DNA of 38,168 bases from Candidatus Gastranaerophilales bacterium (lineage in GTDB: Bacteria > Cyanobacteriota > Vampirovibrionia > Gastranaerophilales > Gastranaerophilaceae): assembly GCA_944322875.1 (NCBI GenBank), contig CALUQI010000005.1, positions 1 to 38,168 on the forward strand. Direction: 5' to 3'. A program made the position numbers and the translations under genes. Of this stretch, positions 13,854 to 14,961 are shown one piece after another. The notes below the pieces were generated by a model that did not search any database, was not told where the DNA came from, and saw only the letters and a program-made list of their open reading frames with translations. Numbering within the stretch: position 1 is the stretch's first letter; each line of letters begins with the position of its first letter.

Positions 13854-14675
13854 CTATTCATCTACTTCTTTAAGCTGCGTGTATATAATTGGTGAAAGTC
13901 TGTCTTTAGAAACTATATCTATAATTTTATATGCATGAGGTTCTTTAAGAAGGGTAGGGGTATTGATGTGATAAATGCCGTCTTGCATAGTTTCACTGTT
14001 AACATGAAAATGTCCTGATATTATAGCGACAACATTGTCGTGCTTTTTCAAAACGGCAAAATAGTCTTCTGGACGATACGTTTTATGAGTCTTTAATCTT
14101 GCTTCACCAAATTCAGGTGAATTAACTATAGGGTAGTGCTGTAAAATAATGACAGGATTTTTCTTGTTCTTACTAAGTTGTTTATCTAGCCAGTCAAGTG
14201 TATCTGCTCTATAATATCCCACAGAACCGGGGATGACTTCTTTGGCTCCGTCAACTACAATAAAAGTATAACCTTTTTTCTTAAAGGTATAATTCCATTT
14301 TTTACGGAACCATAAAAAATTATTGGCATGAACGATTTCGGCATATTGTTCTTTTGACAGTTTCTTACTTTTTGCGACATCGTGGTTCCCTATGACCAAG
14401 TAATAGGGAACGTTTAATTTGTTTATTATTTTTATAAAATCTTCCAAATATTCGGGTTGGGGAGAGTTGATATTATCACCTGTAAATACTACAAAAGAAA
14501 CATCATTTAAGGAATTAATATCTTTCACAGTTTTCTCAAGTGCGTTCACGGTGAAAGCACTTTGAGAATTGAAGTGTACATCCGTAACTTGGACAAACCT
14601 GATAGAGCTTTCAAATCCAAAGCAGTGAGTTTGAAATATAAAAAAAGAAAATAAGAATAAAAAAGCTTTTTTCAT
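13854..14675 (-). CDS. Exported calcineurin-like metallophosphoesterase
   Basis: 273 residues with an N-terminal signal peptide (MKKAFLFLFSFFIFQTHCFG) and no canonical lipobox. The five calcineurin-like metal motifs appear in order: VTDVHFN (about residue 31), FTGDNIN, VIGNHDVAKS, LQHYP and SGHFHVNS. The arrangement resembles periplasmic or extracellular phosphodiesterase/phosphatase members such as the CpdA/purple-phosphatase-like group; the substrate is not predictable. It is divergent from rqcP with only 37 bp between the start codons, and both promoters lie inside that gap. No Shine-Dalgarno. Confidence 0.88.
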   Translation of the reverse strand: MKKAFLFLFSFFIFQTHCFGFESSIRFVQVTDVHFNSQSAFTVNALEKTVKDINSLNDVSFVVFTGDNINSPQPEYLEDFIKIINKLNVPYYLVIGNHDVAKSKKLSKEQYAEIVHANNFLWFRKKWNYTFKKKGYTFIVVDGAKEVIPGSVGYYRADTLDWLDKQLSKNKKNPVIILQHYPIVNSPEFGEARLKTHKTYRPEDYFAVLKKHDNVVAIISGHFHVNSETMQDGIYHINTPTLLKEPHAYKIIDIVSKDRLSPIIYTQLKEVDE

Positions 14676-14682
14676 AATTCTG

Positions 14683-14691
14683 ATTATAACA
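14683..14691 (-). promoter_or_regulatory. Extended -10 for leaderless metallophosphoesterase mRNA
   Basis: Minus strand TGTTATAAT (14691-14683) is a perfect extended -10; CAGAATT (7 nt) separates it from the ATG at 14675. Transcription should start at or 1 nt before the start codon. No good -35 is seen at 17-18 nt. Confidence 0.65.
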
Positions 14692-14697
14692 TGAATA

Positions 14698-14706
14698 TGC
14701 TATAAT
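14698..14706 (+). promoter_or_regulatory. Extended -10 for leaderless rqcP mRNA
   Basis: TGCTATAAT (14698-14706) is followed by exactly GATTCT and the ATG at 14713. There is no Shine-Dalgarno. The element lies 9 bp from the oppositely directed -10 of the metallophosphoesterase gene, so polymerase footprints on the two promoters must overlap. Confidence 0.7.
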
Positions 14707-14712
14707 GATTCT

Positions 14713-14961
14713 ATGAGATTAGACAAATTTTTGAAAGTGTCACGATTAATAAAGAGAAGAACAATTGCCAATGAAGTTTCAGATTTGGGCAGAGTGTTTA
14801 TAAATGGGCATCCGGCAAAGCCTTCTAAACAAATAAAACAAGGTGATGTAATAAGGATTGAATATACATATAAAAAGGTAGAAGTTCGTGTTTTAATAGT
14901 GCCGGAGAATAATGTAAGTATTCAGGAAGCAGCAAGTTTATATGAATTTTTAAATGACTGA
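14713..14961 (+). CDS. rqcP: S4-domain RNA-binding protein RqcP (YabO/Hsp15 type)
   Basis: 82-residue S4 protein. MRLDKFLKVSRLIKRRT at the N-terminus, then NEVSDLGRVFINGHPAKPSKQIKQGD and a C-terminal EAASLYEFL, match RqcP (YabO) nearly word for word. RqcP binds the 50S subunit with RqcH and helps add alanine tails to stalled nascent chains; Hsp15 (HslR) is a related but longer protein. It stands alone here, divergent from an exported phosphoesterase and 193 bp upstream of the rod genes. The start codon is fixed by homology and by the adjacent -10 element. Confidence 0.92.
   Translation: MRLDKFLKVSRLIKRRTIANEVSDLGRVFINGHPAKPSKQIKQGDVIRIEYTYKKVEVRVLIVPENNVSIQEAASLYEFLND

Follow-up and report, generated by a model that had tools for sequence, protein, structure and literature searches.

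How two divergent genes can be transcribed from a gap of 37 bp is the question raised by positions 14676 to 14712 of the window, the whole 38,168-nucleotide stretch of Gastranaerophilales DNA analyzed here. The gap reads AATTCTGATTATAACATGAATATGCTATAATGATTCT and separates a metallophosphoesterase gene (MPE, minus strand) from rqcP (plus strand), and it is made of two promoter cores and almost nothing else. An earlier note on this DNA had described two face-to-face leaderless promoters that exclude one another and couple a ribosome-rescue factor to an exported phosphoesterase. The promoters in fact point away from each other and are back-to-back and divergent. We consider it likely, with a probability of roughly 0.8 as judged from sequence, that both are functional extended -10 promoters that form a constitutive housekeeping pair and leave both genes leaderless.

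RESULTS

The plus-strand gene (14713 to 14961) encodes an 82-amino-acid S4-domain protein of the RqcP/YabO-Hsp15 type (Pfam S4, 2e-9), and its best match among solved structures is Bacillus subtilis YabO (PDB 7aqc_Y, 8e-19). The protein scores below the NCBIfam Hsp15 equivalog cut-off, and an NFACT/RqcH-type gene is present in the window's genome, G000 (NFACT_N match, 162 bits). We take YabO to be RqcP. Thus, the best structural match and the NFACT/RqcH gene in the same genome make the name given in the earlier note reasonable, and the protein belongs with the small S4 proteins related to YabO that are found in genomes with RqcH. The minus-strand gene (13854 to 14675) encodes a calcineurin-like metallophosphoesterase of 273 amino acids (Pfam Metallophos, 1e-19) with a signal-peptide-like N terminus, which fell below every cut-off when compared with the NCBIfam equivalogs. 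Both start codons are backed by N termini conserved in the genus, MRLDKFLK for RqcP and the signal peptide MKKxxLTLxF for MPE. We note that stop codons or frame breaks disrupt MPE in L012/L013 (G007 C80, G006 C7) and in L095 (G005 C51) while the promoter pair is intact, and that G006 carries a second MPE-rqcP pair, itself unbroken, on C5.

Each strand of the gap carries a perfect extended -10 at the distance from its ATG that had been claimed. On the plus strand, TGCTATAAT (14698 to 14706) is followed by GATTCT (6 nt) and then by the rqcP ATG at 14713; on the minus strand, TGTTATAAT (14691 to 14683) is followed by CAGAATT (7 nt) and then by the MPE ATG at 14675. With the preceding bases included, the rqcP promoter is a TRTG extended -10, TATG-C-TATAAT (14696 to 14706, plus strand; hexamer at 14701-14706), and the MPE promoter is CATG-T-TATAAT (14683 to 14693, minus strand; hexamer at 14688-14683). 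The two TATAAT hexamers are 12 bp apart. Neither of the 6- to 7-nt stretches between -10 and ATG contains a Shine-Dalgarno sequence, and none would fit there, as the earlier note had also observed. No convincing -35 element was found for either promoter, and a scan for -35/-10 pairs returned none for the rqcP promoter; in many congeners the rqcP -10 is preceded, 17 bp upstream, by a weak match, TTCAAA (4/6), where the window has TTCTGA (3/6). Because transcription usually starts about 7 nt past the -10, the predicted starts fall at or next to each ATG. For rqcP the start would be the A of the ATG (14713, plus strand), which is the seventh nucleotide past the -10 and gives a leader of 0 nt, a prediction based on its 6-nt spacing and on the genome-wide peak of leaderless-type starts described below. 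For MPE it would be the A of the ATG or the preceding base (14675 to 14676, minus strand), giving a leader of 0 to 1 nt, as predicted from the 7-nt distance, which is 6 nt in two congeners. A scan for promoters inside the opposite gene gave -35/-10 matches that were all weak and no more numerous than background, and a minor leadered transcript might still arise from there.

The gap is conserved in relatives, whose named contigs are mostly "Candidatus Gastranaerophilales" MAGs together with Candidatus Scatousia. Of the 16 genus genomes (the window's own counted), 15 have MPE and rqcP divergent across a gap of 36 to 38 bp, that is, all those in which both genes are seen on one contig. In G003, the remaining genome, the contig ends soon past the gap and the search reported no MPE match, but the core is still present in the gap sequence (L019). 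That core, ATTATAnCAtrAATATGnTATAAT (24 bp; 14683 to 14706), consists in the alignment of two back-to-back 11-bp extended -10s of the TRTGnTATAAT type and 2 central bp. Invariant columns number 19 of 24 in the core against 1 of 13 in the flanks (Fisher p = 6e-5), and across all 16 genomes the core hardly changes, unlike the drifting flanks. Such conservation does not merely reflect recency, as congener proteins are only about 60 to 77% identical to those of the window. The MPE hexamer is invariant in the genus, and the rqcP hexamer has one variant, TACAAT in L029. The n of the MPE element can be any of the four bases, that of the rqcP element is A, C or G, and the two show no covariation, with dyad symmetry in 3 of the 13 distinct sequences. 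The -10-to-ATG distance is 6 to 7 nt in every genus member with both genes visible, and no Shine-Dalgarno motif was found in the gap of any member. Each side therefore has the conserved TGnTATAAT with a free n of an extended -10 sigma-70 promoter, and both the 6- to 7-nt distance and the absent Shine-Dalgarno sequence of the promoter-proximal leaderless class.

The strict two-sided architecture, two divergent ATGs each with a perfect extended -10 at 6 to 7 nt, was found once in 774 kb of the window's genome and in none of five Markov-1 shuffles. A looser version (5/6 hexamers, TG not required) was observed three times, against zero to four in shuffles, and the weight is therefore carried only by the strict form and its conservation. 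Leaderless-type starts are, however, not confined to this locus. In G000, TATAAT-like hexamers peak sharply 6 to 7 nt before in-frame ATGs (102 against about 26 expected), and the same peak is present in G010 (54 against 12 expected). The peak is ATG specific: no 6-nt peak precedes GTG or TTG, before which there is a small rise at 7 nt in G000 only. A separate Shine-Dalgarno class is present elsewhere in the genome. The pooled excess of leaderless-type -10s amounts to 11.6% of genes in six genus members (G000, G010, G002, G011, G008 and G012) and, for five further genera of the family, to 5.7%, with lower values and smaller samples in other families of the order; these percentages are approximate, as genes were called by a simple hexamer-score ORF caller on sampled stretches. 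Leaderless starts thus appear ordinary in the genus, given the sharp peak and a share of about 11 to 12% of genes. The earlier claim that both mRNAs are leaderless, with leaders of 0 to 1 nt, is in keeping with this class and with the genus-wide conservation of core and spacing.

We note that leaderless-type -10s are about twice as frequent in the window's genus as in the other sampled genera of the family (Fisher p = 6e-4 on raw counts from few genomes), and a lineage-specific rise of leaderless initiation is possible. Tight gaps of double-leaderless type also occur at L087:1892-1928 in G010 (36 bp; aroK and a der GTPase) and at L034:10701-10741 in G000 (40 bp; heptosyltransferase-like and YifB-ComM-like genes), with the names read from translations. 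Moreover, the sequence CATGCTATAATTATAGCATG at L191:2157-2176 in G002, a member of the same genus, is perfectly palindromic over 20 bp. Its two divergent ATGs are separated by only 14 bp, and its two extended -10s overlap, each TG overlapping the opposite start codon. The palindrome sits between a serine recombinase gene, whose identity was searched, and a small ORF of unassigned function, and as a candidate double-leaderless bidirectional promoter it is more extreme than the MPE/rqcP gap. A similar palindrome, CATATTATAATTATAATATG, is found in G013. Finally, the 20-mer CAAATTATAATTCTAATATG is present in about 7 to 11 copies in G010 and G008 and in fewer in the congeners G012 and G007, and it may be either a dispersed repeat or the shared promoter of a gene family.

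Beyond the genus, the promoter pair persists while its surroundings change. Where MPE and rqcP are still adjacent in other genera of the family, the gap is 53 to 99 bp and both extended -10s are mostly kept, and the hexamers are usually about 21 bp apart (16 to 22), compared with 12 bp in the window's genus. There the distance from -10 to ATG lengthens and Shine-Dalgarno sequences appear: MPE has a CGGAG leader in L014, L020, L139, L141 and L142, in which rqcP is still of leaderless type, and rqcP has a Shine-Dalgarno leader in L024, L026, L128 and L136. The two genes are not neighbors in many other genomes of the order, where they occupy separate contigs or separate places. As the -10s persist while the leader changes, what is conserved as a unit is the promoter pair, with a labile leader type. 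The window's genus is the compact form, in which about 9 bp between the hexamers, and the leaders as well, have probably been lost, a direction of change that we infer.

DISCUSSION

How the two promoters would work can be put simply. Each would be recognized by sigma-70 mainly through TRTGnTATAAT, with no real -35. We infer that transcription begins at or within 1 nt of each ATG, yielding two leaderless mRNAs translated without a Shine-Dalgarno sequence, that one polymerase at a time binds the gap in either orientation, and that at ordinary occupancy both genes are expressed independently at constitutive housekeeping levels. The promoter pair itself is inherited, as other genera of the family share both -10s.

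Whether single occupancy amounts to regulation is a separate matter. With the hexamers 12 bp apart, a polymerase bound at one promoter would cover the -10 of the other, which makes double occupancy very unlikely from geometry alone, and to that extent the mutual exclusion of the earlier note is sterically plausible. Exclusion could, in addition, make the gap a regulatory switch in which rqcP and MPE are anticorrelated and ribosome rescue is deliberately coupled to the exported phosphoesterase. The strict spacing within the genus would suit such a switch, as would the retention of the divergent pair in several other genera, and the two consensus extended -10s could be strong enough to compete. 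Five bidirectional promoters of Escherichia coli, however, show little competition at basal activity and compete only when transcription is raised (PMC12825309); thus, mutual exclusion does not in itself count as evidence of a switch, even if the consensus promoters of this gap could be stronger than those tested in E. coli. Moreover, other genera have a spacing of about 21 bp and differing leaders, and in many genomes of the order the genes are apart. Double-leaderless divergent pairs are also about as frequent as independent assortment predicts: 18% of non-operon-internal genes in G000 are leaderless, so that 3.6 such pairs are expected among 112 divergent pairs, and 6 were seen. Finally, the other tight pairs join unrelated genes (aroK with der; a heptosyltransferase with a YifB-like gene). 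We consider a switch unlikely, and the proposed coupling of ribosome rescue to the phosphoesterase is not borne out by pairs that form at a near-independent rate, by unrelated partners elsewhere or by a leader mode that changes between genera.

The core might instead be read as a single palindrome, ATTATAnCAt-N4-aTGnTATAAT, an operator through which a dimeric regulator would govern both genes. The 24 bp come near to an inverted repeat, which is perfect in some species, as in L002 (ATTATATCAT-AAAT-ATGATATAAT). The symmetry, however, follows from two opposed TGnTATAAT promoters, and TRTGnTATAAT explains every conserved position except the central 2 bp. Because the two n positions vary independently, we favor two sigma-70 promoters over one dimer operator; as the half-site spacing also differs among genera (12 against 16 to 22 bp), the operator was rejected as highly improbable. 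Equally hard to credit is a conserved, regulator-free double-leaderless divergent unit in which polymerase exclusion and shared dependence on leaderless initiation would together link RqcP to the exported phosphoesterase, as might happen if stress altered the supply of free 70S ribosomes. Least probable of all is that the sites are chance matches in a window of 67% A+T, both genes being transcribed from elsewhere with longer leaders: loose dual sites do occur at about the shuffle rate, but chance was rejected for the strict form, which no shuffle contained, whose core is kept in 16 genomes while the flanks drift and whose distance from the ATG coincides with the sharp genome-wide -10 peak.

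Why two probable back-to-back housekeeping promoters merit attention lies in their economy. The gap would be a clean natural example of a minimal divergent region, in which two extended -10s and two start codons suffice, and its relatives form a ready series (12 against about 21 bp; leaderless against Shine-Dalgarno led on either side) for gauging the effects of spacing and leader. Such a series would let promoter competition and expression be measured against spacing and against the gain or loss of leaders. The gap also points to a class of leaderless genes in the Gastranaerophilales that is seemingly enriched in one genus. Searches of a literature library found no work on leaderless genes in that order and none that combines leaderless, divergently transcribed and overlapping promoters, although these are weak negatives.

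Each element of the arrangement has a known counterpart. Extended -10 promoters of the TRTGnTATAAT type carry a perfect TATAAT with a TG one base ahead of it and can dispense with a -35, and the promoters of the gap differ from them only in being packed back-to-back. Overlapping divergent promoters with one leaderless transcript are known from lambda PRM/PR and Tn1721 tetR/tetA. The gap resembles these in being divergent and sterically overlapping with a leaderless product, but differs in that both of its transcripts would be leaderless and in showing no evident regulator or operator. Leaderless bacterial genes that carry a TANNNT signal, resembling a -10, some 12 bp ahead of the start codon were described by Zheng et al. 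(2011; PMC3160421). The genes studied here are similar in that the -10 hexamer lies 6 to 7 nt before the ATG, there is no Shine-Dalgarno sequence, and the class is ATG specific and a genome-wide minority. In that survey Cyanobacteria were not listed among the groups in which leaderless genes had been detected, and many such genomes used neither mode, whereas the nonphotosynthetic Gastranaerophilales do show a leaderless class, of about 11 to 12% of genes in the window's genus. Bidirectional promoters of E. coli have shared or overlapping -10s and starts usually 10, 18 or 23 bp apart (PMC12825309, PMC10268837). Like them, the gap has a symmetric -10 core and divergent promoters that, by geometry, should be too close for simultaneous binding; unlike them, its -10s are separate, with 12 bp between, and its predicted starts are 37 to 38 bp apart, so that it falls outside the strict definition of a shared -10 with starts usually 10 to 23 bp apart. 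We conclude that the gap, predicted to be double-leaderless and with separate but overlapping promoters at fixed spacing, represents a variation on known kinds rather than a new kind.
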